Source of the DNA: Leisingera aquimarina DSM 24565
Lineage (GTDB): Bacteria > Pseudomonadota > Alphaproteobacteria > Rhodobacterales > Rhodobacteraceae
Assembly (NCBI RefSeq): GCF_000473165.1
Contig: NZ_KI421504.1
Span: 308,595-372,594 of the forward strand
Direction: 5' to 3'
Length of the DNA: 64,000 nucleotides
Shown here: one piece after another, positions 11,821 to 27,555 of the stretch
Position numbering within the stretch: the first letter of the stretch is position 1
Layout: every line of letters starts with the position of its first letter
The notes under the pieces: model-generated
The model's database searches: none
Seen by the model: only the letters and a program-made list of their open reading frames with translations
Told to the model about the DNA's origin: nothing
Program-made: the position numbers and the translations under genes

Positions 11821-12509
11821 CACCGCTCGTCCTGATCCCCGGCATGATGTGCGACGCGCGGCTGTTCACCCCGCAAGTCGCAGCCTTGTCCGGCCAGCGC
11901 TACCTGCATCTGGTCTCGCTGGCCCGCCACAGCAGCATTGAAGCCATGGCGCAGGCCATTCTGGAGACCGCGCCGCCGCGCTTTGCCCTGGCCGGTCTGT
12001 CAATGGGCGGCATCGTGGCAATGGAAGTCCTGCGCCTGGCACCCCAGAGGGTCGACCGGATCGCGTTGCTGGACACCAATCCGCTGGCCGAGCGGGAAGA
12101 GATCAAACAGCGCCGCTTGCCGCAAATGCAGGCGGTGCGCAATGGCCGTCTGGCAGAGGTCATGCGTGACGAAATGAAGCCGAACTACCTGGCCCCCGGC
12201 CCCCAGCGGAAAGACGTGCTGGATCTCTGCATGGCGATGGCACTGGGGCTGGGGCCGCATGTGTTTCTGTCCCAGTCCCGCGCCCTGATGGACAGGCCGG
12301 AGCAAACTGGAACCTTGGCCCAAGCCCGTCTGCCTGCGCTGGTGCTCTGCGGCCGCCAGGATGTACTGTGCCCGCTGGAACGGCATGAGCTGATGGCCGG
12401 GCTCATTCCAGGCGCTCGCCTAGAAGTGATTGAAAACGCGGGACATCTGCCCACACTGGAACAACCTGAAGAAACCACAGCGGCGCTTGCCCGCTGGCTG
12501 GAGGCCTAA
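11817..12509 (+). CDS. Alpha/beta-fold hydrolase
   Basis: A 230-residue soluble hydrolase. The catalytic triad is readable: nucleophile Ser in GLSMGG (about residue 61), Asp in CGRQDVLCP (about 180) and His in AGHLPTLEQP (about 207). The N-terminal LVLIPGMMCDARLF supplies the oxyanion hole. Overlaps both neighbours (ATGA upstream; TAATG downstream), so it is part of the operon. Short members cleave esters, lactones, thioesters or C-C bonds of 1,3-diketones. In this pathway a lactonase or ester hydrolase after the dehydrogenases is plausible. Confidence 0.88.
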   Translation: MTPLVLIPGMMCDARLFTPQVAALSGQRYLHLVSLARHSSIEAMAQAILETAPPRFALAGLSMGGIVAMEVLRLAPQRVDRIALLDTNPLAEREEIKQRRLPQMQAVRNGRLAEVMRDEMKPNYLAPGPQRKDVLDLCMAMALGLGPHVFLSQSRALMDRPEQTGTLAQARLPALVLCGRQDVLCPLERHELMAGLIPGARLEVIENAGHLPTLEQPEETTAALARWLEA

Positions 12510-13204
12510 TGGACAACTCTCTTCTGGACCTGCTGAAATCGGTCGACACCCCCACCGTCTGCAACGCAATCGAAGTTGCCCAGGGCAAGCGCGGGTTTGC
12601 AAATTTCACCCGTGGCACCATGCTATGCTCTGCGCCAGAAGAAGGCGCAATCGTGGGCTACGCCCGCACCGCCAAAATAGCGGCCGTCAATCCACCCGCT
12701 GAACCGCCAGAGATAATCCGAGAGCGGCGCATGGCCTACTACAAGCACATGTCCGAGGGTCCGCGCCCGGGCGTGGCGGTGGTGGAAGACCTCGACTACC
12801 CGGACTGCATCGGCGCCTACTGGGGAGAGATCAACACCACGGTCCACAAAGGGTTCGGTCTTTCCGGAGCGCTGACCAACGGCGTCATGCGCGATCTGGG
12901 AGACCTGCCGCATGGGTTCCCGGTCGTTGCCGGTTCGATCGGTCCCAGCCACGGTTTCGTTCATGTGCGTGAAATAGGTACTCCAGTCACTGTCTTCGGG
13001 ATGGAAGTGCAGGACGGGAGCCTGATTCACGCCGACCGCCATGGCGCGCTCGTCATTCCGGCGGACGTCGTGCCGCTATTGGGACGTGCCATCCAGAAGC
13101 TCTTGGAGACGGAAAAACTGATCCTGGAACCAGCGCGCCGCGAAGGTTTCGGCTTTGCCAGTTTCGAGAAAGCCTGGGCAGCTTTCGAAAAGGCACGAAC
13201 CTAA
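12509..13204 (+). CDS. RraA-family protein, probable 4-hydroxy-2-oxo-acid aldolase/decarboxylase
   Basis: A 231-residue protein of the RraA/DlpA fold. The conserved substrate/metal segments are seen: GALTNGVMRDL (G..G..RD, about residue 115-125) and LIHADRHGALVIP (about 170-183, with the Asp that holds Mg2+). Members with these residues act as 4-hydroxy-4-methyl-2-oxoglutarate aldolase/oxaloacetate decarboxylase; the true RNase E inhibitor RraA is shorter (~160 residues). The longer N- and C-termini resemble catabolic homologues. As the last gene of the operon it could cleave the final intermediate to pyruvate or another central metabolite. A GC hairpin (about 13209-13227) without a U-run follows. 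Confidence 0.82.
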   Translation: MDNSLLDLLKSVDTPTVCNAIEVAQGKRGFANFTRGTMLCSAPEEGAIVGYARTAKIAAVNPPAEPPEIIRERRMAYYKHMSEGPRPGVAVVEDLDYPDCIGAYWGEINTTVHKGFGLSGALTNGVMRDLGDLPHGFPVVAGSIGPSHGFVHVREIGTPVTVFGMEVQDGSLIHADRHGALVIPADVVPLLGRAIQKLLETEKLILEPARREGFGFASFEKAWAAFEKART

Positions 13205-13742
13205 AATTGGGGCGGCAAGTGCGCCCCAGCGCCGCTGACTAGTGAGTTGCCTGTATAGGTCAAGCAGTAGCTTCAGGAATAGTGCTTTAGTGTACGGCGG
13301 CCTGTCTTCTATCCGAATGTTGTGGAACTTGCCGAGTAGCTGGCGAAGGTCCGGTTTTTCAGACAGCCGAGCATATGCACGCAGGTGCAGAGAATGGCTG
13401 CTTCCCGCCCGCAGTAGTCGCTGCGAAGAACAAATTTAGCTGCGGTTAAGTCCAGCACCCACACAGGAGCCGTTCGACGCTCGCGTCGTCAAGTTTGCAC
13501 AGGCCTTGATAGCAGATGTCACTCTCGTCTCAGAGACTGATACACGAATCAGTCTAGCGGGCGGTAATAAAAACTGCACATTTGGCTTCTCTCGGTGAAG
13601 TTATAACAGTAGGTGAAAGATAATAGAGACCCCGATGGCTACGCGGGAGAAAGTGCGTCCCCAGTGCGTCCCCAATACAATATGCAGCTCTTGCAACATC
13701 ATCAAGTTTTGGAAAAACTTCAAACATTTCAATGATTTGAAG
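13205..13742. other. Gene-free stretch beside the island; possible ORF remnant and tandem 11-mer
   Basis: No intact gene. On the - strand a frame of about 75 codons (13433 down to 13205) opens just after a TAA, has no usable start and reads protein-like (for example FLKLLLDLYRQL), so it may be the stump of a lost gene. At 13652-13673 AGTGCGTCCCC occurs twice in tandem. The final ~60 bases are AT-rich (TTTTGGAAAAACTTCAAAC) and abut the left attachment core. Together this suggests residue of an earlier island at the same tRNA site. Confidence 0.35.
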
Positions 13743-13756
13743 TGGTGCCCGGGGGC
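13743..13756 (+). repeat. Left attachment core (attL) of the island
   Basis: Fourteen bases identical to the 3' end of tRNA-Phe at 25424-25437, same orientation. After the core the sequence leaves the tRNA and enters the island, as expected for the duplicated half-site. Confidence 0.75.
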
Positions 13757-13799
13757 TGTTCTAAATCTGGTCTAGATCCGTGTGCAATCCGGTTCAGTT

Positions 13800-14795
13800 C
13801 CCGTTACAGGCACCGCCGTGGCCATCTGCATCAGCAAAATAAGGGCTATCAGCCCCATGCGGTTGCGGTCAACAGGCACGATTTGGTCTACGGGATGTAC
13901 TACGGCCCAGAGAAGCCTTCTACAGACCGGACCGTGGCCTCCGTGCTGTTGACTGGCCTACAAGGTCTTCAGAAGCTGCAGACTGCCTTGGGCCGCATGT
14001 GGGACTCACAGAGAGCCGCAATGCTGGCAGAGGGTCCCCCCCTATCTGGGAGCCGCTAAAAGCGCTGTATGACTCACACCTGGACGCTCTGCGGACATTC
14101 TGCTTGCCGCCTAAGCAGGGGGGGGGGCGAGTGCCACCCCATCCCGTAGGGATAGCGTATACAGCCCCGCCCCGAGATTGGGTTGTGGAGGTCGTCAACC
14201 TGCAGCAGGCACTGGCATCCCCAAATGCCCGGATGAGGCCTCTGGCCAACCTTGACGGCTTCCCGTGCTGCAGCGGGTGGAGAGTGCATGTTCCTGCAGC
14301 CCCGACTAGGCCTCAAAAGCCAATGCACAGGGTCGCCATGCCACGGGCAGGGAGAAGGCCAGATTCCCCGCTGGTTGGCTGGCCTGGATGTCCAGGAGGC
14401 AGGGCCACGGGAAAGGGCTGCACTCCTGCAGGGTCCCACGGCACTGGATCCGACGGCGGGAGTTGATGCTGCTAAGTCATCTTAGTATGGGGAAGGGCGG
14501 CCCCCAGGGCCGCACCTGACCCTCACATATGAGGTCAGTAACTGCTCCAGCCGAGGTTACAGCCGTGGTCACAAACGCCCAGACCCAAGAGAATGCACGG
14601 GAACGCCGCTACCGGCGCTTCTTCCAGGTCGTTGATGGCCTGGTTGAGGAGATTCAAGGCCATCAGTGGGAGGCAACCGGTAAGGCAAAGCGCCGAGTGC
14701 GGGGAGAGCAGCTTCTCAAGCTGCGGGCTTCCGTGGAAACCTTGATCCGTGACAGCGTGGCCGTGGTCTACCAGCGCAAGCGGAAGGGTGAAGCC
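13800..14795 (+). repeat. Left copy of the 996-bp inverted repeat
   Basis: Runs from CCCGTTACAGG to GGTGAAGCC and reappears inverted at 23046-24041; both copies are 996 bases, and the encoded reading frames on both strands are identical. The ~45 bases between the repeat and the attachment core are still recognisably related in the two copies, but diverged. The first ~730 bases hold no clear gene: a protein-like frame (for example HDLVYGMYYGPEKPSTDR) breaks at a C7 run (14036-14042) and would continue in another frame through a G10 run (about 14118-14127). The last 267 bases are the 5' end of the polymerase-like gene. Confidence 0.9.
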
Positions 14796-14846
14796 AGACA
14801 GTACTTCAGGTTTGAATCTCGTTGGCCATCCGCATCGCTCGATTAA
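14529..14846 (+). pseudogene. Truncated 5' copy of the polymerase-like gene
   Basis: The first 89 codons are identical to the N-terminus of the full gene on the opposite strand at 21774-23312 (MRSVTAPAEV to KRKGEA). At 14796 the repeat ends and the frame runs into antisense hsdR sequence, stopping at 14846 after 16 unrelated residues. All polymerase-like motifs are missing. It is a by-product of the inverted duplication and not expected to be functional, although its start region is intact and could still be transcribed toward hsdR. Confidence 0.8.
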
Positions 14847-17778
14847 AGAAGTGCCGTGTGGCTTGGTCTCGGGCAACCTTATCCGTCATCACCGCACTCC
14901 GCATTTCGTTGTCCTGCTGGAACATCCGCACCATCCCTTGGAAGAAGGCACGCTCGAACGCTCCATAGACGACATCAGCGGGGTTGTTTCGCATCATGTC
15001 CGTCATCTCGTCATCCATGATGTCCCGATTGACCCGCTCGAACCGGAGAAAGTCCTCCCTTGAAAAATTGGTCCCATGCCGCTCGTTGAAAGAGTCGATT
15101 ATCTCAGACAGTGACCGCTCTTCCTCTTCCGTGTACTGGTTCACTCCGAACTCGGTGATGGCCGTCAGCTTGATGGCATCCCCAGGTTGGAGGGATGCAG
15201 ATCCCTCTTCCCCTTTCTGCACCCGAAATGCGGAGAGCTGCAGCATGTCCTCCGTGATCGAAATGTCTGCGGGGACTTCGCGTGACGGCAGCAGGCGTGA
15301 TAGCCACGAGACATAGGCAAACAGCTTTTCGAGCCAAGGGTCGCCCAAGGCTATGATCTGGGCTACGAACGAGTAGAAGCGCGTGTAGCTGCGAAGAAGC
15401 TGCCGGAATTCCTCCTGCTGCGCCTCGTCATCATCCATCTCGAAACGGCCCACGGCTTCCTTGACTAGGCCTTCGAGGCGGATCCGGTCCTGGCCGCTGA
15501 GATTGCCCTTGAAGAAGGCTTCGGCAAAACGCTCAACATCCTCGCGAATGATGTACGGCGAAGAAGAAATCCGGCATTCAAGATCGTAGATCTGATTGAG
15601 GTCAGTCCGTTCCTCCAGTTCCGTGGCCTCGAAGAAGGGGGCAAAGGCGTCACGGATCTCCTCCATCGTGTTCTGGAAATCGAGGACGAAAGTTCGCTCC
15701 TTTCCTGAGTAGGTCCGGTTCAGCCGGGCAAGGGTTTGCACCGCTTGCAGCCCTGCCAGCTTGCGGTCGACATACATCGCTACCAGTTTCGGCTGGTCAA
15801 ACCCGGTCTGGTATTTCTCAGCAACGACCAGCACCTGATATTCGTCCGTGTCGAACCGCTGCGGCAATTCCGTCTCCGGGAAGCCATTTGCTGCGGCCTC
15901 GGTCCAGTCGTTGTCGTCTATGCGCAGGTCGCCCGAGAATGCCACCAGGGCCTTCAGGTCGGAGTATCCGTTCTTGTCGATGTAGGCTTTGATCTGCTGC
16001 CAGTACCGGAAGGCGTGTTCACGGCTTTGCGTGACCACCATGGCCTTCGCTTGGCCGTCGAGTTCCTTCCACACATGCCGCCGGAAGTGTTCGACGATGA
16101 TCTCCACCTTCTGGGCTATGGTAGTCGCATGAAGGGAAGCATACCTCGCGACCGCCCGCTGTGCGTTTCTGCCCTTGAAGGCAGGATCATCTTCGATGGC
16201 CTTCTCTAGCTGGTAGTAGGCCGAATAGGTCATGTAGTTCTGGAGGACGTCCAAGATGAACCCTTCCTCGATAGCCTGACGCATCGAGTAGAGGTGGAAC
16301 GGGTGCGGGTGACCGTCTTCGCCCATGCGGCCAAATCGCTCCAGCGTCACGTTCCGGGGTGTCGCCGTGAAGGCTAGGAAAGAGATGTTCTTCTGCGGGC
16401 CTCGCGCGGCTTGATGGGCAAGGATCATGTCCTCGATATCTTCGGACGAAGTCTTCTCCCGTGTCAGCGCATCACTCATGGCCTGCGCGGCCTTACCCGA
16501 CTGCGAGGAATGCGCCTCATCGATGATTACCGCGAAATTCTTGGAGGACTGGCCTGAAATGGCTGCCAGATGTTCGGTCCCGAACTTCTGAATCGTGGTG
16601 ATGATAATCCGCTTGCCTTGCTCGATGGCCTGTTTCAGATCACGGGAGGTGCCATCGATCTTCTTCACCACGCCTTTGGTCTGGGCAAACCCGCTGATCG
16701 TGTTCTGGAGCTGGCGGTCCAGCACCAGACGGTCAGTGACAATGATCGCCGTATCGAACAAGGGCTGGTCGGCCTCGTCGTGCAGGTTGATGATCTGATG
16801 AGCGGTCCAGGCAATTGTGTTGGACTTGCCGGAACCTGCGCTGTGCTGGATCAGGTAGTTCTGCCCAGCGCCATTCACCCGTGCATCGGTCAGAACACGT
16901 CGTACAGCGTCCAACTGCTGGAACCGGGGGAAGATCAGCACCTCCTTGCCGCCAGACCGCTCCAGGTGAATGAACCGCCCAATGAGGTCCAGCAGCACCT
17001 CGCGGGAGAAGACAGCCTTTGCCCCCGGCAGATCCTTGTAGAGGTAGGCAACCCGGTTTTCCCCCGGCACATCCGCGTTGCCGGCCCCGCCGTTCCGGCC
17101 CCGGTTGAAGGGGAGGAAGCGTGTCTTGCCGTTCATGAGGCGGGTGGTCATCGATACGTTGTCCGGGTCCACGGCGAAATGAACGATAGCCCCGCGTTTG
17201 AACGTCAGAAGCGGCTCACCGGCGGGAGAGCGGTCCTTGCGGTACTGGGCTTCGGCGTGTTTGAAGGTCTGCCCGGTCAGCGGGTTCTTCACCTCCATCG
17301 TGGTCACGGGGATGCCGTTCACGAAGGTCACGATGTCGATGGCATTGGCGTTCTTCGCGGAGTACCGCACCTGCCGCATCACCGACAGGATGTTGGCCTC
17401 GTAAAGCCGGGTCAGTTCGGGGTTTAGGTTCGAGGCAGGTTTGAAGTAGCAGAGCTGGAAGCGGATGTTCGGAACCAGCTTGATCCCCTGGCGCAGCACC
17501 TGGTGGGTGGGTTGCTCCTTCAGGGCCTTTTCCAGCCGTTTCAGAACCTCGGCTTCGGCCTGGGTGCTGTAGTGATCCTCCAGCGTTTGCCACGCTTCGG
17601 GCTGGGTGTCGCGCAGGAAGCGGAACAGCAACTCGCGGTCCAGCGCGTAACCCGCGTCGTAGTCGGTGGCCGGATCGCGTTCGAGGTAGCCCAGTTCCGA
17701 GGTCAGGCAGCCTACGATATGGGCCTCGAAGACCTTTTCCTGATGGACGACTTCCGTTCCAAATGTACTTTGCGCCAA
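14806..17778 (-). CDS. hsdR: Type I restriction enzyme, endonuclease/translocase subunit R
   Basis: A 990-residue motor-nuclease of a type I restriction system, which cleaves unmodified DNA after ATP-driven translocation. The nuclease core is visible in GIPVTTMEVKNP (E-x-K, about residues 155-166). The SF2 helicase part shows Walker A HSAGSGKS (about 312-319), DEAH in VIIDEAHSSQ (about 418-424), motif III AFTATP and the C-terminal helicase lobe (VAEKYQTGFDQPK, LARLNRTY). The start is a TTG at 17776-17778 preceded by AGGACGGTGG. It lies 18 bases after orf118 in the hsd operon. The 3' end stops 10 bases from the left inverted repeat, so the operon occupies the interval completely. No frameshift or motif loss is seen, so the enzyme looks active. 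Confidence 0.95.
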   Translation of the reverse strand: MAQSTFGTEVVHQEKVFEAHIVGCLTSELGYLERDPATDYDAGYALDRELLFRFLRDTQPEAWQTLEDHYSTQAEAEVLKRLEKALKEQPTHQVLRQGIKLVPNIRFQLCYFKPASNLNPELTRLYEANILSVMRQVRYSAKNANAIDIVTFVNGIPVTTMEVKNPLTGQTFKHAEAQYRKDRSPAGEPLLTFKRGAIVHFAVDPDNVSMTTRLMNGKTRFLPFNRGRNGGAGNADVPGENRVAYLYKDLPGAKAVFSREVLLDLIGRFIHLERSGGKEVLIFPRFQQLDAVRRVLTDARVNGAGQNYLIQHSAGSGKSNTIAWTAHQIINLHDEADQPLFDTAIIVTDRLVLDRQLQNTISGFAQTKGVVKKIDGTSRDLKQAIEQGKRIIITTIQKFGTEHLAAISGQSSKNFAVIIDEAHSSQSGKAAQAMSDALTREKTSSEDIEDMILAHQAARGPQKNISFLAFTATPRNVTLERFGRMGEDGHPHPFHLYSMRQAIEEGFILDVLQNYMTYSAYYQLEKAIEDDPAFKGRNAQRAVARYASLHATTIAQKVEIIVEHFRRHVWKELDGQAKAMVVTQSREHAFRYWQQIKAYIDKNGYSDLKALVAFSGDLRIDDNDWTEAAANGFPETELPQRFDTDEYQVLVVAEKYQTGFDQPKLVAMYVDRKLAGLQAVQTLARLNRTYSGKERTFVLDFQNTMEEIRDAFAPFFEATELEERTDLNQIYDLECRISSSPYIIREDVERFAEAFFKGNLSGQDRIRLEGLVKEAVGRFEMDDDEAQQEEFRQLLRSYTRFYSFVAQIIALGDPWLEKLFAYVSWLSRLLPSREVPADISITEDMLQLSAFRVQKGEEGSASLQPGDAIKLTAITEFGVNQYTEEEERSLSEIIDSFNERHGTNFSREDFLRFERVNRDIMDDEMTDMMRNNPADVVYGAFERAFFQGMVRMFQQDNEMRSAVMTDKVARDQATRHFFNRAMRMANEIQT

Positions 17779-17796
17779 TTTACCACCGTCCTGTTT

Positions 17797-18153
17797 CTAC
17801 AAATGGGCGATAATTTTCTCTGCATACGACAGCAGAGCTTTTCGATCTTCGACCGTTATGCTCTCGAGCGGTTCCCAGCTTTCGACAACCTGTTCAATGA
17901 ACGCAATTTCACTGCCTGAAAGTACAGGGTGACGAAACGCTGCAGATTGAAGTTCGTGCAGAAAATCGATCAAGACTTCGTTCGAGTTAATAATGCGTTC
18001 AGGATGCTCGATCCAAAACTTTAGAGAGATATCCGCTTTGCCTGCGGCAAGACGAAGTTTTCGAAGAAGTAGCGTGAAATCATTATTTTCTGCAATCTCT
18101 TCTCGTTCTTTATCGATCTCTGCCTGAAGTTCCTTGGGTGTCTTGCGTGTCAC
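17797..18153 (-). CDS. Uncharacterised 118-residue protein inside the hsd operon
   Basis: I do not recognise a family. The GTG start overlaps the hsdS stop (GTGA, 18150-18153) and the gene ends 18 bases before hsdR, so it is translationally coupled into the restriction operon. The product is acidic and mostly helical, with a charged N-terminal helix (ELQAEIDKEREEIAENN), then LLLRKLRLAAGKADISLKFW and a C-terminal helix (DRKALLSYAEKII). No Cys pairs, nuclease or helix-turn-helix motif is visible. The DNA is more AT-rich than its neighbours. A role in assembly or control of the HsdRMS complex is an inference from position only; an independent antitoxin- or immunity-like protein is the alternative. 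Confidence 0.7.
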   Translation of the reverse strand: MTRKTPKELQAEIDKEREEIAENNDFTLLLRKLRLAAGKADISLKFWIEHPERIINSNEVLIDFLHELQSAAFRHPVLSGSEIAFIEQVVESWEPLESITVEDRKALLSYAEKIIAHL

Positions 18154-19511
18154 GCCTCCATCTCCTCCTGAATTTCGTCCAGCCGCCGGTCCATGATGCC
18201 GGATCCACCTCGGGTCTGCACATCGATCTGCCCCGTAACAGCGGCGGTGATCAGCGCGGAGCGGTATTCCTTGAGGCGATTGATAGATGCGTTTGTCTTC
18301 TGGGACAGCGCCTCCAAGGGCGAAACAAACTTATGAACTTTCTGAACGATGCTTTTCTGTTCCGCCAGTGGCGGCAAAGGGATTTTCACATTCAGAACGT
18401 CATCGTTTGACAAATTCGCTTGTTTCGTTCCTGACGGAAGAGCATAGAGCTGATCCAAATAAAAATTTGTCCTTAGCGCCAAAAGCAAGAAAGTGTTGGC
18501 TACGAGATGGTTTGATCTTATGCGAGCAACACGTTGGTTCAGCAGTAATGGCTTCTCCGGACCTACCAGCACCGAGAAGCCGTAGTCTCTCTTTCCAAGA
18601 GTGCCTGTGAGCGACATAAGGATGTCACCTTCTAGAATTTCGAACTCACTGTAATCACTCAAATATCTCTCCGGCAAAAAAACTGCCTGCCGGTCCAACT
18701 GAAGACTGTTTTCGTATAGATTTCCTATCCGTATCAGTTGAACACCCGTGTCAGTGAAATCATCCGAACTGAACGCGTATCCGCCGCGGATAGTAGCGAC
18801 ACGTTTCACAGGGGTCAGCGTCCATTCATCACGCTTGAGGCGTTTATCTGCTTGCACTTCAGCATGGGGGGCCGAACCGGGACCAGTTTTTCCTATGACA
18901 AGCATCTCGATGGTTGCAGAGACCTTTTCTGAAAGCACATGCAAAAACCGCTGCTTTTTCTCGATCAGCAGATCAATTCTTGCGGTCTCGCGGTCCAGAA
19001 AGTCGGCAATCTGGCGTTGGGTCGCGAGGTCGGGGAGAGGAAATGCTGCGTTCAGAAAGGTCTCAGTGCGGACTACTTTTCTCAGGCCCGTATAGAACGG
19101 TCTCAATCCCTTTCGCTCATCAATCGAAAGATAGAAGTAAGTCACAAATCGAGGATCGACGAGTTCCGTGCATCTGACAACCGTGTAGGCACCCGTGACC
19201 ATACCATCCAAGTCAGACAGACCGACTGTGCGGGGCGTCTCGTCTATATCGAAGAGACAGAAGACAATGTCGCCCTTCTTGACCTCTTGATAAGTGTCGA
19301 AACTTTCTGGGAACTTGCCTTTACCGCTGTCGAGATCGCGGGGAATGATCCCCTTCAGTGTCAAAGACAGCAGGGCATATTCTGAGGACCGCGTTCCAAC
19401 TTTCTTGGAAACGACACGGAATGCGTTCTTTGCACGTCCAAGTTTCCAAGCTGGCGAGACTTGTCCAAACCACGCTGCACGCAGGTCGGCATTCTGCGAA
19501 CTAGTGGTCAC
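18150..19511 (-). CDS. hsdS: Type I restriction enzyme, specificity subunit S
   Basis: A 453-residue DNA-recognition subunit. It has the usual two target-recognition domains (about residues 15-170 and 225-385), each followed by a conserved helix: LPDLATQRQIADFLDRETARIDLLIEKKQ in the first and PLPPLAEQKSIVQKVHKF in the second, then a C-terminal YRSALITAAVTGQIDV. The start is GTG overlapping the hsdM stop (GTGA at 19508-19511). The recognition domains are more AT-rich than hsdM and hsdR, as expected for exchangeable specificity modules. The bipartite target cannot be read from sequence. Confidence 0.93.
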   Translation of the reverse strand: MTTSSQNADLRAAWFGQVSPAWKLGRAKNAFRVVSKKVGTRSSEYALLSLTLKGIIPRDLDSGKGKFPESFDTYQEVKKGDIVFCLFDIDETPRTVGLSDLDGMVTGAYTVVRCTELVDPRFVTYFYLSIDERKGLRPFYTGLRKVVRTETFLNAAFPLPDLATQRQIADFLDRETARIDLLIEKKQRFLHVLSEKVSATIEMLVIGKTGPGSAPHAEVQADKRLKRDEWTLTPVKRVATIRGGYAFSSDDFTDTGVQLIRIGNLYENSLQLDRQAVFLPERYLSDYSEFEILEGDILMSLTGTLGKRDYGFSVLVGPEKPLLLNQRVARIRSNHLVANTFLLLALRTNFYLDQLYALPSGTKQANLSNDDVLNVKIPLPPLAEQKSIVQKVHKFVSPLEALSQKTNASINRLKEYRSALITAAVTGQIDVQTRGGSGIMDRRLDEIQEEMEA

Positions 19512-21532
19512 TCAACCACCTCCTGCAACAGGCCCGCGATCTCGGCTTCCAGCGCCTTCAGCTCGGCGTCGATCTCCGCCAGCGGGCGGGGCGGCACGTA
19601 TTTGTAGAAGTAGCGGTTGAAGTTGATCTCATAGCCGACACGGCCAACACCGCCGTCCTGCACGTCGGTATAGCTTTCGTCCACCCAAGCATCGGGGACG
19701 AAGGGCAGAACCTCGCGCTGCACGTAGTCCCGCCAGTCCTCCTCCAGCGGCACCAGCTCGTGATCGCGCAGATCGGTATCGGGTTCCGGCTTGCCATCCT
19801 TGCCAGTGCAGACCATGGCATCCTCGTCCCGTTCAGCCAGGGCCGACAGGATGGCCTTCTTCGCCGGGGCGGCGACCTTCAGACCCGCAGCCTTCAGCGC
19901 CGCAGTTAGGGCTTTGTCGAAGTCCGCCCGGTCCAGCCAGCGTTTACCCGCAGGGAGGCCATCCCGCAGCGTGGTCACAACCGCCTCCTGCTCGGCGGCA
20001 TCCAGCTTGGCAAAGGGCTTTGCCTCCTGCAGTGTTTGCAGGGCGTCTTCGGTTATCTCGAAGGCCAGTTTCAGAGGGCGTTCGACTCGGATCTCCCGGT
20101 AGCCGAAATCGGTGGTCTTGAAGATCTTGGAGTATTCGCCCCAGCCAGCCTCGCCATTCAGCATCCTGGCATAGATGCGGGTGATCTCGTCACAGGCTTC
20201 CGCCGGGATTTCCCGGCGTTTGGAGCCGAGCGACTTGCGCATCGACTTCCAGAAGCGGTCGCTGCTGGCATCGATCAGCTGCACCTTGCTCTGGCGGTCC
20301 CGTGTCTTGCGGTTGGTCAGCAGCCACACGTAGGTCTGAATGCCGGTGTTGTAGAAGAGATCCGTCGGCAGGGCGATGATCGCCTCGACCCAGTCGTTTT
20401 CCAGCATCCAGCGGCGGATCTCGCTTTCACCCGAGCCTGCGCCGCCGGTGAACAGGGGCGAGCCGTTCATGACGATGCCGATACGGGTTCCCTGTTCGTC
20501 ATCGCGCATCTTCGAGATCATGTGCTGCAGGAACAGCAACTGCCCGTCCGAGACGCGTGGCAGACCGGCCCCGAAGCGGCCCTCCATGCCCAATTCCTGT
20601 GCTTCGGCGACGATGTCGTCCTTGTACTTTTTCCAGTCCACGCCGTAGGGCGGGTTGGACAGCATGTAGTGGAAACCCCGGCCTTTGTGGGCGTCCTGAG
20701 TCAGCGTGTTCCCGAATGCGATGTTCTCGGGGTTGTGGCCGGTGACCAGCATGTCCGATTTGCAGATGGCGAAGGATTCCGGGTTCAGCTCCTGCCCGAA
20801 CAGCTCCACCCGGATCCGCTCGTTCAGGGCCTTCATCTCCATTTCGGCAATGGACAGCATACCGCCGGTACCCGCCGCCGGGTCATAGACTTGCCGGATC
20901 ACGCCACTGCCGGTTAAGGCGTCGTGGTCGTTGATAAGGAGAAGCGACACGATGAGGCGGATCACCTCACGTGGGGTATAGTGTTCCCCTGCAGTCTCAT
21001 TCGAGATTTCCGAGAAACGGCGGATCAGTTCCTCGAACAGGTACCCCATCTCGAGGTTCGAGATCGCCTCAGGGTGGAGGTCGATCTGAGAGAACTGCTC
21101 GAACACAGTGAACAGCAGGCCCGCGTCGTTCAGCCGCTTGAGCTGGTCCGTGAACAGGAACTTCTCAAGGAAGATATCGCGGACGTTCGGGGAGAACTTG
21201 GTGACGTAGTCCAGGAGGTTGCTGTGGATGTCTTTGGCATCCTGCCCCTTCAGTGTGGTGAAGGAGAACCGGGACAGGTTGTAGACCTGAAGATTTTGGC
21301 CGGCAGTCCCAAACAGGATCGTATCGCGGGCCTCATCGTCAATGTCTTCGGGCAGGCTGTCGGCCAAGTCGAGGACGGCATTCTTGGTTCCTTCGAGAAT
21401 GCAGTCCAGGCGGCGCAGGACAACGAAAGGCAGGATAACCTTGCCGTACTCCGACTGCTTGAAATCGCCGCGCAGTGTCTCAGCGATGGCCCAGACGAAT
21501 GCACTCAGAGATTTGATGTCCGTTCTGCTCAT
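19508..21532 (-). CDS. hsdM: Type I restriction enzyme, DNA methyltransferase subunit M
   Basis: A 674-residue N6-adenine methyltransferase. An N-terminal HsdM helical domain (SLSAFVWAIAETLRGDFKQSEYGKVILPFVVLRRL) precedes the SAM-binding motif DPAAGTGGM (about residues 212-220) and catalytic NPPY (about 290-293). The C-terminal extension contains DYVQREVLPFVPDAWVD and a coiled end. With HsdS it methylates the host sites. The open frame begins at 21583; I prefer ATG 21532 (MSRTDIKSL) because the extra 17 residues do not fit the family start and a GAGAAAGTGAGAA site precedes 21532. It is the first hsd gene, 190 bases after the polymerase-like gene; this gap probably carries the operon promoter, but I cannot define it. 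Confidence 0.93.
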   Translation of the reverse strand: MSRTDIKSLSAFVWAIAETLRGDFKQSEYGKVILPFVVLRRLDCILEGTKNAVLDLADSLPEDIDDEARDTILFGTAGQNLQVYNLSRFSFTTLKGQDAKDIHSNLLDYVTKFSPNVRDIFLEKFLFTDQLKRLNDAGLLFTVFEQFSQIDLHPEAISNLEMGYLFEELIRRFSEISNETAGEHYTPREVIRLIVSLLLINDHDALTGSGVIRQVYDPAAGTGGMLSIAEMEMKALNERIRVELFGQELNPESFAICKSDMLVTGHNPENIAFGNTLTQDAHKGRGFHYMLSNPPYGVDWKKYKDDIVAEAQELGMEGRFGAGLPRVSDGQLLFLQHMISKMRDDEQGTRIGIVMNGSPLFTGGAGSGESEIRRWMLENDWVEAIIALPTDLFYNTGIQTYVWLLTNRKTRDRQSKVQLIDASSDRFWKSMRKSLGSKRREIPAEACDEITRIYARMLNGEAGWGEYSKIFKTTDFGYREIRVERPLKLAFEITEDALQTLQEAKPFAKLDAAEQEAVVTTLRDGLPAGKRWLDRADFDKALTAALKAAGLKVAAPAKKAILSALAERDEDAMVCTGKDGKPEPDTDLRDHELVPLEEDWRDYVQREVLPFVPDAWVDESYTDVQDGGVGRVGYEINFNRYFYKYVPPRPLAEIDAELKALEAEIAGLLQEVVE

Positions 21533-21773
21533 ATTCTCACTTTCTCGATTGAATAGCCCTTGGTTCGACTGCACGGCAATCAATGACGAGAGCGAGTAAG
21601 GCTACCTTCAGCATTGGCTGAACCGCTGTTTGGCAATCTGCTTCCAAGATTGGTTTTCCACTCCCTTTGAGCATATGGGTGACCGCCTGCGCAACCATAG
21701 AGGCAAGCAGTCACGTCTTGGCTCTGGCACTGTAAAAGAGCCTTCCCCGAAAGCTGGGAGATAGACGCCCAGA

Positions 21774-23312
21774 TCAAGAAGTACCCAGAGACGCACTCGA
21801 GTAGAACGCATCCAGCCTCTTTTCGTGACCAGCACGGGAGGCGAGGATCTCACCAATATCCTGCGACACCTCGAGGCCGAAGCCCTCGGGGTCCTGCATT
21901 CGCTGCTCTTTAAGCTCGGCAAAAACCCGGCTGAGATCCGGCTCGACGAGCTTGAGCTTGGTCTCGACGCCACATACTTCCCGCAGTGCCTTTCGCATGC
22001 TGTCTTCCAGCAGGTCGCTATGCCCCTCGTGGACGAGAAAGCTGTCATGGATCGGCAGGATGGCGATGCCACGGTCGATGAAGTCGAGCATCACCCGTTC
22101 GGCTACATCGCTGTCCGCTCGCTGCAGGCGCTTACCGGCACCGGTATAGAAGTGATGGGCGATGGGTTTATGCGCTGCCAGCACGGCATCTGAAAGCTCC
22201 CGCCACTTCATGGAAAACTTGCCCGGCTCTACCCCCTTTGGGGCCTGCCGCAGCTCTTTCTCGGCATTCAGCATTGCGTTGAAGGCGGCTTTGACCGTGC
22301 TGCGCAATTCATTACCGCCCCGTGCCTCAACATCGGCGGCGAAGATACCACGGTAGCAGTCTACAGACGGCACAACACCTTCCTGGGCATATAGAAGCGC
22401 GGGGTGCAGGTTGGAGTAGTCGATCTCCACCATGCGCTTGCCGTTGACGATCAGGTGGCGGCGGTAAGCCTTCGGCACATTCTGCCACCAGCCCCCGTAA
22501 AACCGGCCTCCGGTCGTCAGGTCCCTGTCATTGAAGACACGGTGGAGAGTTCGCCGGTCCAGCGCCAGAGGCTTCGCCCCGTCCGGGTCCTCTGCCAGCC
22601 GAGCCTGCAAATCCGCCAGTTCGGCATCAGGGATATGCAGGTCATACCAGCGGGTAGCCAGCACCCGGTTGATCCGGGAAAGGTTATCCGCCATCTGCTG
22701 CACCTCTGCGGTCACGGGAGCAGCGAACAACTCGTCCGGGCCATCCGCACTCTTGATCCGCACCTTAATGGGGGCATGACCCCGCTCAGGAGGCACGATC
22801 ACGGGGAACACTTCCTGCTCTCTGGCTGTGAACTTGATGATGAGATGGTCAGTGGCCCTGAACCGGGTGAGGCGGCTACGGTTAGACCCGTCCTTCCTGC
22901 CCTGGCGGTCGTGGACGCCTCGTTGGGTTTGCTCCAAGTATCCCAGCTCCAGCATTCCCTGATAGGCCCGCTCGACATGGATGCTGTAGGTCAAATCCGC
23001 GGGTGAGGCCTCACCGCCATACCAGTTCCTGTTCAGGTGAACAGAGGCTTCACCCTTCCGCTTGCGCTGGTAGACCACGGCCACGCTGTCACGGATCAAG
23101 GTTTCCACGGAAGCCCGCAGCTTGAGAAGCTGCTCTCCCCGCACTCGGCGCTTTGCCTTACCGGTTGCCTCCCACTGATGGCCTTGAATCTCCTCAACCA
23201 GGCCATCAACGACCTGGAAGAAGCGCCGGTAGCGGCGTTCCCGTGCATTCTCTTGGGTCTGGGCGTTTGTGACCACGGCTGTAACCTCGGCTGGAGCAGT
23301 TACTGACCTCAT
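21774..23312 (-). CDS. Polymerase-like protein (family A / single-subunit RNA polymerase palm motifs)
   Basis: A 512-residue protein of no family I can name. Three motifs in the right order and spacing suggest a polymerase palm. Motif A is VEIDYSNLHPALLYA (Asp298; compare DYSQIELR in DNA polymerase I). A motif-B-like helix is RSTVKAAFNAMLN (Arg337, Lys341; compare RSVTKRSVMTLAYG in T7 RNA polymerase). Motif C is ILPIHDSFLVHE (Asp423; compare IHDSFG in T7 RNA polymerase). No 3'-5' exonuclease motifs are evident. The N-terminal third is basic and coiled (RERRYRRFFQ, GKAKRRVRGEQLLKLRAS), followed by a winged-helix-like segment. The ATG overlaps a near-palindrome (CCTCATATGTGAGG). Its first 89 codons lie in the 996-bp repeat. 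It may replicate or prime the element, or be a defence protein; this is inference. Confidence 0.6.
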   Translation of the reverse strand: MRSVTAPAEVTAVVTNAQTQENARERRYRRFFQVVDGLVEEIQGHQWEATGKAKRRVRGEQLLKLRASVETLIRDSVAVVYQRKRKGEASVHLNRNWYGGEASPADLTYSIHVERAYQGMLELGYLEQTQRGVHDRQGRKDGSNRSRLTRFRATDHLIIKFTAREQEVFPVIVPPERGHAPIKVRIKSADGPDELFAAPVTAEVQQMADNLSRINRVLATRWYDLHIPDAELADLQARLAEDPDGAKPLALDRRTLHRVFNDRDLTTGGRFYGGWWQNVPKAYRRHLIVNGKRMVEIDYSNLHPALLYAQEGVVPSVDCYRGIFAADVEARGGNELRSTVKAAFNAMLNAEKELRQAPKGVEPGKFSMKWRELSDAVLAAHKPIAHHFYTGAGKRLQRADSDVAERVMLDFIDRGIAILPIHDSFLVHEGHSDLLEDSMRKALREVCGVETKLKLVEPDLSRVFAELKEQRMQDPEGFGLEVSQDIGEILASRAGHEKRLDAFYSSASLGTS

Positions 23313-24041
23313 ATGTGAGGGTCAGGTGCGGCCCTGGGGGCCGCCCTTCCCCATACTAAGATGACTTAGCAGCATCAACTCCCGCCGTCGGATCCAGTGC
23401 CGTGGGACCCTGCAGGAGTGCAGCCCTTTCCCGTGGCCCTGCCTCCTGGACATCCAGGCCAGCCAACCAGCGGGGAATCTGGCCTTCTCCCTGCCCGTGG
23501 CATGGCGACCCTGTGCATTGGCTTTTGAGGCCTAGTCGGGGCTGCAGGAACATGCACTCTCCACCCGCTGCAGCACGGGAAGCCGTCAAGGTTGGCCAGA
23601 GGCCTCATCCGGGCATTTGGGGATGCCAGTGCCTGCTGCAGGTTGACGACCTCCACAACCCAATCTCGGGGCGGGGCTGTATACGCTATCCCTACGGGAT
23701 GGGGTGGCACTCGCCCCCCCCCCTGCTTAGGCGGCAAGCAGAATGTCCGCAGAGCGTCCAGGTGTGAGTCATACAGCGCTTTTAGCGGCTCCCAGATAGG
23801 GGGGGACCCTCTGCCAGCATTGCGGCTCTCTGTGAGTCCCACATGCGGCCCAAGGCAGTCTGCAGCTTCTGAAGACCTTGTAGGCCAGTCAACAGCACGG
23901 AGGCCACGGTCCGGTCTGTAGAAGGCTTCTCTGGGCCGTAGTACATCCCGTAGACCAAATCGTGCCTGTTGACCGCAACCGCATGGGGCTGATAGCCCTT
24001 ATTTTGCTGATGCAGATGGCCACGGCGGTGCCTGTAACGGG
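23046..24041 (-). repeat. Right copy of the 996-bp inverted repeat
   Basis: Inverted duplicate of 13800-14795, same length and same encoded frames, including the C7 and G10 runs (here G7 and C10 on the + strand). It contains the promoter region and first 89 codons of the intact polymerase-like gene. The two copies enclose 8.25 kb with the whole hsd operon, so recombination between them would invert that segment. Such perfect identity implies recent duplication or gene conversion, or an assembly artefact. Confidence 0.9.
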
Positions 24042-24073
24042 CCTAGAACCCGGTCAACACCGGATTCAGGACT

Positions 24074-24148
24074 GCCCCCGGGCACCATTACCCAAGTCTA
24101 AGCCATTGTGCCGCATCAGCTTTTGCAACGTGCAGAGCGAGGCGTAGT
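24074..24148 (-). repeat. Inner copy of the 75-bp inverted repeat with inverted attachment core
   Basis: 75 bases identical, in reverse complement, to 25363-25437. It starts with the inverted 14-base core GCCCCCGGGCACCA (24074-24087) and ends GAGGCGTAGT. It lies 31 bases beyond the integrase stop, so the integrase gene sits exactly between the two copies. A core in this orientation should allow integrase-mediated inversion against either flanking core. Confidence 0.85.
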
Positions 24149-24178
24149 CGTCAGCCGGAGACATGCTGCTCCAGCCGT

Positions 24179-25357
24179 CTAAGGTGCAATTCTATCCAGC
24201 CACTTTCTGAGAACCTCCAGCGGGTACCCTTTACCGTATCCCTGACCGACCCCATCCGTGTGCCATCCGCCAATCTGGTCAGCAACATCCGCTGGGCATT
24301 CTACCGCACGGAGCCGGTCTCGCATGGAGTGGCGGAACCCGTGCATAGTAGCCCCCTTCGGCACGTAGGCCTTTAGCCACTTGTTCAGGGCGGCGCTGGC
24401 CGAATTGGCGCTGGTCTTGTCTGAGGTATTGTAGCGGGGAAAGGCGAATTTGTTTCCATCCTGCTGGGTGTGGATGCGCCGGGCAGCCCACTCTGCCGAA
24501 CCAGCCAGCGGAACAACCCTGCTGCTGCTGTCAGTCTTCAGGCTTCTCCACGGGTGCGGGGTAATCTTGGCCGCCCATCTGCCATTTTCCTGCTGGAATA
24601 TGTCTTCACGCAGCAGACCTGCAGCCTCTGCTAACCGCATGCCGGTGTCGGCAACCAGTGCCACTAGCCAGCGCATTTCATCGTCCATCTGGTAGCACTG
24701 CAGTTGCACGGCACGCACAACATCTACTGGGATGGGGCTGCGGACGGCCACGCCTGCACTCCGATCATAATAGACATTGGCGAATGGGGAGGAAATGGAA
24801 AGCCCTTCCTCTGCCACGGCAAAGTTGAACACGGCGCGGACGGTGCCAAAGATCCGGGTAATGCTGCTCCCGGCAAGCCCTTTCTTGATCAGCTCATCCC
24901 GGAAGGCATTGGCGTCTGCCTTGGTGTAGTCCGGCAGAGGTTTATCTCCGCAGACGTCGATTACATAGCCGCAGGAGCGGTGTGCAGCCCGGTGGAAGGT
25001 CTCCGGCCTGCCAAGTCCTTTCAGGCGCAGGTATGTCAACACAGCCTCAGAGAGAGTCAGAGCATCAGTGTTGACATCTTGCCCGTCTCCCGGCGTCGGC
25101 ACGGGACGGGAGAGGCCATGGCGCAGAAGATGCTTGCCTGGAAGGTCCGCGTCCTGGGTCCGCAGGTGGTACCAGTATTCGTCCAGCTTGAAGGCGGCAC
25201 TGGCCGCTCTAGCCAAGGCTACAGGACGCGATCTGGTTCTCAAGGAATAGGAGATCCTGGGGGAGGAATAGTGCTTCCGAAGATCCGCCGGGACACGCCG
25301 GGTGAAGTAGAAGATGCCCTCTTTCACGAAGACATGCTGAGAAGATTTGTACTCCAA
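24179..25357 (-). CDS. Tyrosine recombinase (site-specific integrase)
   Basis: A 392-residue integrase. The N-terminal part begins with an Arm-type region common in Rhodobacteraceae integrases (FVKEGIFYFTRRVPADLRKHY), then a SAM-like core-binding domain (about 105-190). The catalytic domain has Arg241 in DTGMRLAEA, His339-x2-Arg342 in HGFRHSMRD, GGWH, and the nucleophile Tyr in GQGYGKGY (Tyr374 most likely). It is adjacent to its presumed target tRNA-Phe and transcribed away from it. The gene starts six bases from the outer 75-bp repeat, so that repeat probably contains its promoter. It should drive integration and excision of the island. All catalytic residues are present. Confidence 0.92.
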   Translation of the reverse strand: MEYKSSQHVFVKEGIFYFTRRVPADLRKHYSSPRISYSLRTRSRPVALARAASAAFKLDEYWYHLRTQDADLPGKHLLRHGLSRPVPTPGDGQDVNTDALTLSEAVLTYLRLKGLGRPETFHRAAHRSCGYVIDVCGDKPLPDYTKADANAFRDELIKKGLAGSSITRIFGTVRAVFNFAVAEEGLSISSPFANVYYDRSAGVAVRSPIPVDVVRAVQLQCYQMDDEMRWLVALVADTGMRLAEAAGLLREDIFQQENGRWAAKITPHPWRSLKTDSSSRVVPLAGSAEWAARRIHTQQDGNKFAFPRYNTSDKTSANSASAALNKWLKAYVPKGATMHGFRHSMRDRLRAVECPADVADQIGGWHTDGVGQGYGKGYPLEVLRKWLDRIAP

Positions 25358-25362
25358 AATGT

Positions 25363-25437
25363 ACTACGCCTCGCTCTGCACGTTGCAAAAGCTGATGCGG
25401 CACAATGGCTTAGACTTGGGTAATGGTGCCCGGGGGC
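25363..25437 (+). repeat. Outer copy of the 75-bp inverted repeat, including attR core
   Basis: Reverse complement of 24074-24148. Its last 14 bases are the attachment core and form the CCA end and acceptor 3' strand of tRNA-Phe. The rest includes the upstream region of the integrase gene, so promoter sequence is duplicated at 24088-24148, pointing the other way. Confidence 0.85.
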
Positions 25438-25498
25438 GGAATCGAACCACCGACACGAGGATTTTCAATCCACTGCTCTACCCCTGAGCTACCCGGGC
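25424..25498 (-). tRNA. tRNA-Phe (anticodon GAA)
   Basis: A 75-base tRNA with CCA encoded. Acceptor GCCCGGG pairs with CCCGGGC, followed by discriminator A; D arm GCTC..GAGC; anticodon loop TTGAAAA with GAA; T arm GGTGG-TTCGATT-CCGCC. The anticodon stem has one T-T mismatch. Its 3' 14 bases are the island's integration site, and the tRNA remains intact after integration. Confidence 0.95.
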
Positions 25499-25580
25499 AC
25501 GGGAAGGCTGATCGCCTTGGGTGGGGGCCTTCTATGCCGAGCGCGCGGCGGTGTCCAGAGGGTTTTGCAAAAGAAAATCA

Positions 25581-25784
25581 CTAATGCCGGGTTTGGGACG
25601 TTTTTTCTCCCATCTGCAGCGCCCGCCGCGTTTCTTCCGAAGCGTTTTCAATATCTTCCGGGTCCAGGCTGGGCACCGCATAGGCGCCGTTCAGCCATTT
25701 CCCGAGGTCAATATCAGCACAGCGTTTGGAACAGAAAGGCCGGTGTGTCTTTTGCGCTTCCCCGCCGCAGATCGGGCAACTCAT
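25581..25784 (-). CDS. yacG: DNA gyrase inhibitor YacG
   Basis: A 67-residue zinc protein with CPICGG (C-x2-C) at residues 3-8 and CSKRC (C-x3-C) at about 18-22, then DLGKWLNGAYAVP, the family signature. Known homologues bind GyrB and inhibit gyrase. The start overlaps the RNase gene stop (ATGA, 25781-25784), so it is translated with rng. Position before tRNA-Phe fits the conserved alphaproteobacterial gene order. Confidence 0.93.
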   Translation of the reverse strand: MSCPICGGEAQKTHRPFCSKRCADIDLGKWLNGAYAVPSLDPEDIENASEETRRALQMGEKTSQTRH

Positions 25785-26803
25785 CTAAGCACCTCCCGCA
25801 GGGCGATACGGCTGCGCTTACGCTGCAATTCGTAGTGGCCAAGATTGGTCCAGCCGACCAGCACCGTCTCCTCAGACTCAGACCGGACTGCAGCCCGCAA
25901 CGCGGTTTCAAAGCCGCGGCGGTCTTTCTTCGGCATCGGTGCAAGGTCAAGTACAATCTGTCCGCCCAATCCGCGCACACGCAAGACCCTGGGCAATGCT
26001 TTGGCTGCGGCCATGTTAGCTTTAACACCGGCCGCCAGCGAGGTGTCGGTTCCTGAATTCACATCCACCGCCACCAGCGCACGGGTCGACTCGACAAACA
26101 GGAAGCCGCCGCCTGGCAGCGGTTCGCGGATGCCCAGAGCAACGTCCAGTGCGTCCAGCACCCCCAGTCGCTCAAACCCGCCGGGGTCGCGTTCTACATC
26201 CGCAGGCTCTACCCAGTCGCGCCAGGCCAGGAGATGCGGCATGTCGCCTTCGGCCAGCACCTCAGTTGCGGAACCTTCGTCCTGCATCACCTGCGCGGCC
26301 AGCGCGGCCATTGCAGCGACGTCTTCGGCGATCTCTTCGCCGTCCGTACCGGCGCAGGCCGATCGCAGGATCAGACCATATCCGGTTTCACCCATTTCCT
26401 CATGAGCAATTTCCAACAGGCGGTCGCGCTCGTCTTCATCACGGATGCTGCGCGAAATGTTCAGGCCCGGCGCCTCAGGAGTCACAATAGCGTAACGGCT
26501 TTTGAACAGCAGTTTCTGGGTAACCGGGATCGCTTTGCCCGGCTCGGCAACACCGGAAACCTGCACCAGGAGCATTTGCCCGGGTGCAAGCCCCTTGACC
26601 TGACGCAGGAAGGCAGGCCCGTCAGGGGTAGTCAGGAACATGCCCCCCTGCCCCTTCACCGGCCGGTCGGCGCGGGCGCGGTAGATGGTGCCAGGCGACG
26701 GCGTGTCGCTGTCGATCAGGAAATCCTCCAGTTTGCCATCTACCATCAGCGCAGCGGCTTCACGGTCCTGGATGTGGTCGAGAATGATAGTGCGGCCCTT
26801 CAT
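25781..26803 (-). CDS. rng: Ribonuclease E/G family protein (short form)
   Basis: A 340-residue endoribonuclease for rRNA/mRNA processing. The catalytic Mg2+ Asp residues are in LVAVDVNSG and [10 protein letters not shown] (about residues 240-310). N-terminal S1-like region: [20 protein letters not shown]. The protein ends shortly after the catalytic domain ([13 protein letters not shown]) and lacks the CPxCxGxG zinc-link and small domain found in E. coli RNase G. A CPxCxG motif instead starts the overlapping yacG. Overlaps maf upstream by ATGA. A second, full-length RNase E is expected elsewhere. Confidence 0.88.
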
Positions 26804-27381
26804 GCGGCAGCCTCCTGATACAGCGGCAGCCCGGCGGCGCGCAGCAGATTTGCGGTTTCAGACAACGGCAGCCCGACAATGCCGGTGAAGGAGCCGCTGA
26901 TCCACGGAATAAAGGCGCCTGCGGGGCCTTGGATAGCATAGGCGCCGGCCTTGCCCTCCCAGTCGCCGGTGGCGAGATAGGCGTTCAGTTCTTCGTCAGA
27001 GAGATTCTTCATCTTCACCTGGCTGACCACATCCTTTTCCCAGACCCGGTCCCCGCGCCGCACCGCGACCGCAGTTATCACCCGGTGGCGGCGGCCGGAG
27101 AGGGCGAGCAGGAATTCCGCCGCCTCGCCTGCATCGCGCGGCTTGCCCAGGATGCGGCGGCCCAGGGCAACTGTGGTGTCGGCGCACAGAACAACATCCT
27201 CTGTCCCCGCGGGGACAGCCTGGTTTTTTTCCCGTGTCACCCGCGCGCAATAGGCCCGCGGCAGCTCATTCTTGAGCGGGGTTTCATCAATCTCCGGCGG
27301 GCGCACCTCGTCCGGATGCACGCCGAGCTGCGCCAGAAGCTGCAGCCGCCGCGGACTGCCGGATCCCAAAATGAATGCCAT
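26800..27381 (-). CDS. maf: Maf-like nucleoside triphosphate pyrophosphatase
   Basis: A 193-residue nucleotide pyrophosphatase that hydrolyses non-canonical NTPs. The family signature [15 protein letters not shown] is at residues 5-19; the catalytic EIDETP (Glu/Asp) and [11 protein letters not shown] follow, then [10 protein letters not shown] start at 27381 ([10 protein letters not shown]) with a GAGGG site; the frame extends to 27450 without homology to the family. It overlaps rng by four bases. Downstream of infA and a terminator, it has its own promoter or reads through. Confidence 0.93.
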
Positions 27382-27464
27382 GCCGTGGCCCTCTTGTCCG
27401 TTTGCGCCCGTCATAGGGTGAATTTCAGCGTTGGAAAAGCGCGTCTGCACCTTCCTCCTGTCAG

Positions 27465-27490
27465 AAATATCTCCGCCGGAGGCAGCGGCT
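27465..27490 (-). repeat. Short variant of the hairpin/GATATTT intergenic repeat
   Basis: On the - strand GCCTCCGGCGGAGATATTTC: a small CTCCGCCGGAG palindrome followed by ATATTT, related to the repeats at 58745 and 62646. It lies between the infA terminator and maf. Confidence 0.4.
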
Positions 27491-27500
27491 GAATGGCCGC

Positions 27501-27530
27501 AAAAACAAAAGCCCGGCAGAATGCCGGGCC
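27501..27530 (-). terminator. Rho-independent terminator of infA
   Basis: On the - strand GCCCGGC-ATTCT-GCCGGGC followed by TTTTGTTTTT, 25 bases after the infA stop. Confidence 0.88.
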
Positions 27531-27555
27531 TTGATATTTCTTCCAGATCAACAGC

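Follow-up and report, generated by a model that had tools for sequence, protein, structure and literature searches.

Mirror-image attachment sites around integrase and cargo in a tRNA-Phe island of Leisingera aquimarina and across its integrase clade

The subject of this analysis is an 11,681-bp element inserted at the tRNA-Phe gene of Leisingera aquimarina DSM 24565, at positions 13743-25423 of the window, the stretch of 64,000 nucleotides that was analyzed. Its tyrosine integrase gene (int) and its cargo each lie between mirror-image arms that carry attachment (att) cores. This mirrored layout is the mark of an integrase clade, with the mirrored integrase module present at 47 loci besides the window (48 with arms in total), and it appears to be a new architecture within integrative elements. 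The favored reading, though somewhat short of probable, is that the window element inserts as a folded strand in which two mirror-image sites are paired into one double-stranded element attachment site (attP). A wider proposal is offered more tentatively, namely that of a widespread family that moves as folded single strands, with int in an attachment-site loop and cargo that can be turned or exchanged, and that inserts from incoming single-stranded DNA.

The element is most easily read on the minus strand, starting from the gene for tRNA-Phe (GAA; 25424-25498). The last 14 nt of this gene (25424-25437) form core site 1 (>) and, together with a 61-nt int leader, make up the integrase-side arm (25363-25437). 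The integrase gene (24179-25357; 392 amino acids, with DUF6538 and Phage_integrase domains) is followed by an inverted copy of the arm on the plus strand (24074-24148), which ends in core site 2 (<, 24074-24087). The two arms are an exact 75-bp inverted pair that flanks int and includes two of the three cores. Beyond core site 2 lie a 32-nt near-core spacer (24042-24073) and one copy of a long inverted repeat of 996 bp (23046-24041, minus strand). A polymerase-like open reading frame (ORF) of 512 amino acids (21774-23312), hsdM (19508-21583), hsdS (18150-19511), orf118 (17797-18153, without a family match) and hsdR (14806-17778) follow, all on the minus strand. The stop codon of hsdR stands 10 bp from the other copy of the long repeat (13800-14795, plus strand). 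This copy is separated by a 43-nt spacer (13757-13799), which sequence comparison shows to be unlike its counterpart at site 2, from core site 3 (>, 13743-13756, plus strand), which has the tRNA orientation and marks the far end of the element. The long repeat reaches into coding sequence, with the first codons of the polymerase-like gene in the site 2 copy and a truncated start of that gene (14529-14795) in the site 3 copy. In a 1005-bp version of the repeat (13791-14795 and 23046-24050), the added 9 bp hold 4 mismatches.

The limits of the element follow from comparison with an empty site. In locus L238 (genome G772, same genus), the left flank of the element is contiguous with tRNA-Phe, and the element is therefore bounded at 13743 and 25423; this was one of 12 tRNA-Phe loci fetched from the genus, and the left flank had no match in the remaining 11. 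As in other tRNA islands, a tyrosine integrase lies beside the tRNA gene and a 14-nt direct repeat stands at 13743 and 25424, but the conventional form with two att sites does not accommodate the third core, which is inverted and carries both arms, at 24074. The cargo is a type I restriction-modification (RM) system with HsdM, HsdS and HsdR domains.

A preliminary description of this DNA had reported the 996-bp inverted repeat around an hsdM-hsdS-orf118-hsdR operon, together with three att cores. The repeat is indeed an exact match between 13800-14795 and 23046-24041, and the 14-base core occurs at 13743 (+), 24074 (-) and 25424 (+) with zero mismatches. Two refinements apply: the long repeats enclose the polymerase-like ORF as well as the operon, and the cores all equal the last 14 nt of tRNA-Phe, the one at 25424 being the 3' end of the tRNA gene itself. 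Mirrored arms around the integrase did not figure in that description, and they are the most conserved part of the layout. Type I RM phase variation is known to proceed through hsdS inversions; here the inverted repeats of at least 25 bp found within 12000-28000 all lie outside hsdS. No third copy of the long repeat was found in the window's genome with a 1,053-base query.

Matches to the window integrase comprised 23 loci in named genomes, the TM1040 megaplasmid, which was the one close relative in the plasmid collection, and only 2 loci in virus contigs; sampling 394 genomes of the family added further loci to this first set. Mirrored arms of 75-264 bp surround 26 of the 31 intact integrases in the first set, intact meaning that a single open frame aligned over 340 or more residues. 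Three intact integrases without arms (L066, L068, and L084) lie 17, 188, and 145 nt from a contig end, and two, L129 and L132, genuinely lack them; L132 was scored intact despite one reported in-frame stop. A second set of 21 integrases, chosen across the class and the phylum with integrase similarity as the sole criterion, includes two with one stop each (L231 and L234), and arms of 64-127 bp were found at 16 of the 21. By the same rule, none of 20 outgroup integrases (27-38% identical) has arms with a tRNA tail. A single outgroup locus (L169) shows any pair at all, of 37 bp and 84% identity, 17 kb apart and without a tRNA tail, and 10 of the 20 have a second, direct copy of the tRNA tail, like ordinary islands. 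In the control L158, 12 nt of the tRNA tail recur once in inverted form, 16 kb downstream and outside the pair of direct copies. In L032, one of 14 further control loci, an integrase-like ORF is enclosed by a 91-bp inverted repeat, and no inverted tRNA tail is present. In the integrase tree, ten outgroup sequences split off with a support of 0.995.

The hosts are Alpha- and Gammaproteobacteria, including Rhodobacterales and marine Gammaproteobacteria such as HTCC2207, and the tRNAs at arm-bearing loci include those for Phe, Thr, Leu, Ser, Arg, Gly, and selenocysteine (SeC). TM1040 offers the same layout at tRNA-Phe in other sequences: its arms are 85 bp long, its cores run +, -, +, and its long repeats of 1,148 bp are perfect, hold one BRO gene each and form inverted repeats that are perfect through the core. 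The integrase profile matched 58 of the 394 family genomes at an E value of 1e-30, 18 of these also at 1e-110, and at 1e-80 it matched 10 of 385 genomes in a class sample and 4 of 398 in a phylum sample (the window's genome included); these frequencies are lower bounds, with 4 candidates per genome scored in most genomes. Many relatives are draft genomes in which several contigs end at the arms. For the counts, L151 was dropped because it shares a contig with L075, and L072, with a 67-bp arm pair in one analysis that the arm scan missed, was left out; L062 and L115 (97-98.5% identical at the integrase start) and L064 and L067 (95% over about 1 kb) were counted separately.

Complete elements extend the comparison to the cargo side. 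Downstream of int, about 8 kb of sequence or more was available at 22 arm-bearing loci: 12 of these have a third core (with one mismatch in L142), L134 retains the last 12 nt of one, 3 have a long repeat for which no third core was found, and 6 have neither. The 12 elements, selected for three readable cores, all show the order > < > and measure 4.3-13.3 kb from core to core, and in 11 of them the three cores are identical. Their long repeats span 197-3,183 bp; identity is 97.8-100% in 10 of the 12 and lower in L063 (94%) and in L142 (77%), the latter with a broken integrase. The cores can also be arranged in tandem arrays, as in L224 (> int < > int < >) and L221. What the long repeats enclose varies: type I RM genes in the window and TM1040, a tetratricopeptide repeat (TPR)/sulfotransferase protein together with one of about 1,080 residues and no family in L126 and L130, RTX-repeat proteins in L117, and a collagen-repeat protein in L067. 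Because relatives hold such unrelated cargo, restriction is incidental to the architecture, and the RM-specific structure envisaged in the preliminary description was abandoned. The longest repeat observed is that of L117, a perfect inverted repeat of 3,183 bp (2245-5427 and 10557-13739, read integrase-forward) with a complete 633-amino-acid ORF in each arm, beside the RTX-repeat proteins.

The arms evolve in concert, being near-identical within elements and divergent between them. When nine pairs of related elements were compared, 146 arm positions varied from one element to the other. At only 20 of these did the arms within an element disagree, all in pairs with L064 or L127, whose own arms are 97% identical. 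In the first set, arm identity is 96.3-100% around intact integrases (n = 26) versus 91.2-98.3% around broken ones (n = 6; p = 3e-5). With both sets combined the contrast is weaker, at 90.6-100% (n = 41, 26 of them at 100%) versus 91.2-98.5% (n = 7; Mann-Whitney p = 2e-4). In most elements the integrase-side arm ends a few bases from the integrase start, and in L123, L126, and L127 it extends about 100-182 nt into the gene. At 33 of 38 loci, with 22 different tails, the internal site matches the host tRNA tail over 14 nt or more (the misses are L065, L118, L119, L133, and L137). This site follows the tail even between integrases that are 87-96% identical (L124/L125, L064/L067, L123/L127, and L082/L083; no tRNA was called beside the integrase in L064, L067, and L083). 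Since such close integrases have different matching tails, the core must change at the internal site too. A simple exchange between attP and the host site (attB) would be expected to leave the old core there, and some exchange or pairing between the arms therefore appears to be needed. A motif, CCCGTTACAGGCAC, was also seen about 10-45 nt from the core in the cargo-side arm of many alphaproteobacterial elements, including that of the window (about 24028-24042 and 13799-13813), and is possibly an arm site of the integrase.

Cargo and integrase differ in their freedom to turn. Homologous cargo is inverted relative to int and tRNA between L126 and L130 (5,053 bp at 89.4%) and between L115 and L062 (2,385 bp at 98.0%, at the same type of tRNA-Leu), in keeping with the earlier suggestion that the segment between the long repeats can face either way. 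At the 48 arm-bearing loci, a tRNA was called 5' of int in 38, 3' of it in none, and not nearby in 10, and no reversed integrase was found among them. A circle formed between sites 1 and 3 would carry two equal, inverted attP sites, and double-stranded integration would therefore be predicted to leave half of the integrases reversed.

Of the readings considered, strand-polar integration of a folded strand fits these observations best. Were sites 1 and 3 to recombine, the excised circle would contain a complete attP twice, in mirror image, each copy made up of an integrase-side arm, a core, and a long repeat. In one strand of this circle the copies would pair into a stem with one double-stranded attP, with int and the cargo looped out separately. 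The integrase would then exchange a single strand between this attP and the tRNA gene, and the insertion would be completed by replication, the outcome being three sites (> < >) and a heritable orientation of the integrase. The arms would stay alike if they pair with each other or recombine in the circle, and the same events would bring the internal site into line with the host tRNA tail and allow the cargo to flip. The window holds inverted att copies capable of such pairing, with identical 75-bp arms and an identical 996-bp repeat on either side of unequal near-core spacers. The predicted structure of the integrase (mean predicted local distance difference test [pLDDT] score, 80.8) has a small N-terminal domain before the catalytic part and is nearest in fold to the Tn1549 and lambda integrases, with Tn916/Tn1549 the closest solved structures by profile and fold. 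An integrase of this kind would need both arms double stranded for binding, and the mirrored arms could supply them.

Several points weigh against the folded strand. We infer the single-stranded form from sequence, and no gene that would make single strands was found in the element. In the window element and in L063, where the near-core spacers are unequal, a folded strand would bulge next to the core. The integrase resembles those of Tn1549 and lambda, which act on double strands, more than it does the integron integrases (2a3v, lower in rank). The fixed orientation of int could also come from selection on its expression, and outgroup islands likewise start int at the tRNA, where one is called next to it. 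Arms are missing at 5 of the 21 integrases in the second set: the contig of L225 stops 92 nt past int and the L231 gene has its one stop, and L220, L232, and L235 are armless with neither a contig end nor a stop codon to account for it. The arms of L177 and L229, both with intact integrases of the second set, are only 91% identical. Lastly, in the nearest strand-biased system, the tyrosine-recombinase elements named SE (strand-biased circularizing elements), the circles are nicked double strands, according to excerpts of PMC10214605.

Among other explanations, a double-stranded invertible circle resembling the yeast 2-micron plasmid, with int and cargo separated by inverted repeats that carry the recombinase site, is the main rival, somewhat less probable than the folded strand. 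RecA or the integrase would recombine the arms, flipping int and cargo and keeping the arms alike. The circle would integrate through either attP, and inserts with reversed int would be unstable, for example if int had to remain joined to a promoter in the long repeat. The inverted cargo of the two related pairs and the high identity of the long repeats in 10 of the 12 complete elements agree with this circle, as do the lambda/Tn1549-like fold and the completeness of every att site of the window in double-stranded form despite the unequal spacers. It predicts both orientations of int, however, and 0 of 48 are reversed (38 with a tRNA called). No sigma-70-like promoter was found at 23800-25600 of the window, and the one found in L082 (14700-16700; 9 of 12 matches, facing the cargo) is about the number expected by chance. 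The uncoupling of int from a promoter was dropped as support for the circle, the scans being not above chance.

A natural form of cassette exchange, in which the inverted sites 2 and 3 frame a cargo that is swapped or turned while the integrase module stays in place, seems unlikely. L063 and L115 speak for it, as they share the integrase module (93%) and the downstream flank (93% over about 1.5 kb past site 3) and differ in most of their cargo; they show no match upstream of the tRNA, where only 0.8 kb could be compared in L115, and it is therefore not certain that they occupy the same locus. Such exchange also leaves the mirrored arms around the integrase, and the identity of these arms, unexplained. 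That the structure is a functionless by-product of two head-to-head insertions, an origin raised in the preliminary description, or of a local inverted duplication, is very improbable. Tandem accretion does occur (L224 and L221) and some intact integrases of the clade are armless (L129, L132, L220, L232, and L235), yet arms occur at 48 loci with diverse integrases and tRNAs, are homogenized within elements and are absent with a tRNA tail from all 20 outgroup integrases, so that this reading is largely refuted by recurrence. An assembly fold-back in the window's genome, with a single true copy of the 996-bp segment, can be practically dismissed. Assembly errors are known to arise at perfect long repeats, and draft contigs of several relatives do end at arms, but here both copies lie within one 4.25-Mb contig with different neighbors, and the layout stands in the finished TM1040 megaplasmid record and in the single-contig genomes G045, G970, and G1124, as well as recurring across the clade.

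Placed beside known systems, the element shares features with several. Conventional tRNA islands likewise have an integrase beside the tRNA, are flanked by direct repeats of the tRNA 3' end and have an empty-site counterpart in a relative; they differ in that here a third, complete and inverted att lies inside, and int and cargo are each held between mirrored arms. In the yeast 2-micron plasmid, unique segments are separated by inverted repeats that carry the target of the tyrosine recombinase FLP. The circle proposed here would similarly consist of two unique segments between identical inverted repeats with a recombinase site, but belongs to a chromosomal integrative element in which no sign of autonomous replication or amplification was seen. 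Integron cassettes use a short attC hairpin and an integron-type integrase, in contrast to the long near-perfect arms and Tn1549/lambda-like integrase found here. Inverted attP sites are also used in engineered cassette exchange; papers found on inverted attP included Drosophila work such as that on MiMIC tagging cassettes. The Tn916/Tn1549 elements have the integrases that are closest by profile and fold; these elements are not known to be tRNA specific or to have a mirrored internal att. Tn916 captures overlap bases from its flanks as coupling sequences, as stated in excerpts of PMC5991714.

The proposed mode of integration resembles that of the phage CTXphi. As excerpts of PMC3089051 describe it, two inverted att copies pair in the single-stranded phage genome, one pair of strands is exchanged, and replication or repair completes the integration, which results in three att-like sequences. 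Both systems thus have opposite att copies able to pair in one strand and three att-like sequences once integrated. CTXphi, however, is a filamentous phage genome that relies on the host recombinases XerC/XerD at dif, whereas the elements described here target tRNA genes and carry their own integrase in the loop. The att copies of CTXphi are about 90 bp apart, compared with loops of 1.1-5.6 kb (intact integrases) in a strand that we infer to be single. SE are tyrosine-recombinase elements with one-strand-specific exchange (excerpts of PMC10214605 and PMC5991714), and strand-specific exchange and flanking-base capture belong to the evidence on SE (excerpt of PMC5991714). As far as these excerpts go, SE need intA, tfp, intB, and srap and have imperfect terminal repeats of 13-19 bp, whereas a Pfam scan of the window element gave one integrase among six long ORFs, with long near-perfect arms and an internal att. 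Searches on this architecture or on the integrase domain found no paper that describes the layout in its title or the start of its abstract, in a body of literature that left out most subscription journals.

The polymerase-like gene was considered as a defining part of the element and rejected, as it was matched at 6 of 88 clade loci (the window, L062, L115, L119, L227, and L235; many of the 88 are incomplete) and has homologues in other types of element. Its product (mean pLDDT, 72.5) has a weak match to the fold of family-A DNA polymerases, with a template modeling score of about 0.28 to solved structures, and a stronger match, at 0.43-0.47, to the best phage models, one of which is named DNA polymerase. 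The gene also occurs in elements at tRNA-Gln (L039, 8345-10825; L037, 5300-11163; L036, L031, and L032), which have perfect or near-perfect inverted repeats of their own (51-447 bp) and lack an integrase of this clade; the tail of tRNA-Gln also occurs in inverted form in L039 and L036. These may represent a second palindromic family, differently built. The entire contig L029 (G076:C13, 5,870 bp) is bounded by a 235-bp inverted repeat, both arms of which contain polymerase-gene fragments, and it is possibly the missing middle of an element that has its integrase end in L119, from the same genome.

Remnants and variants of the clade were seen as well. Truncated integrases of which only the 5' part remains are common (L138, L141, L143, L149, L153, L154, and others), and several adjoin a tRNA. 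L220 (G970) has a clade integrase at tRNA-Phe and, downstream, other perfect inverted repeats, one of 383 bp and one of 931 bp. Within the window's genus, the last 47-48 nt of tRNA-Phe are copied in L061, L246, L152, and L236; the tail copies in L246 and G238:C11 adjoin truncated or decayed integrases, and the integrase copies of L061 and L246 are 96% identical to that of the window over 249 residues. The four tail copies possibly reflect another island inserted between the tRNA and an older element.

The draft assemblies of several relatives break at the arms, and such elements are therefore probably under-reported. The palindromic layout is recurrent and strongly maintained, and tyrosine-integrase islands are thus not all of the form with one attP and two direct repeats. 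If the double-stranded reading were true, the element would be an inverting circle in bacteria comparable with the 2-micron plasmid. If instead the elements insert as folded strands, they would add a further, self-sufficient route of single-strand integration beside those of integron cassettes and CTXphi, and this would help to explain the spread of small islands that carry no transfer genes.

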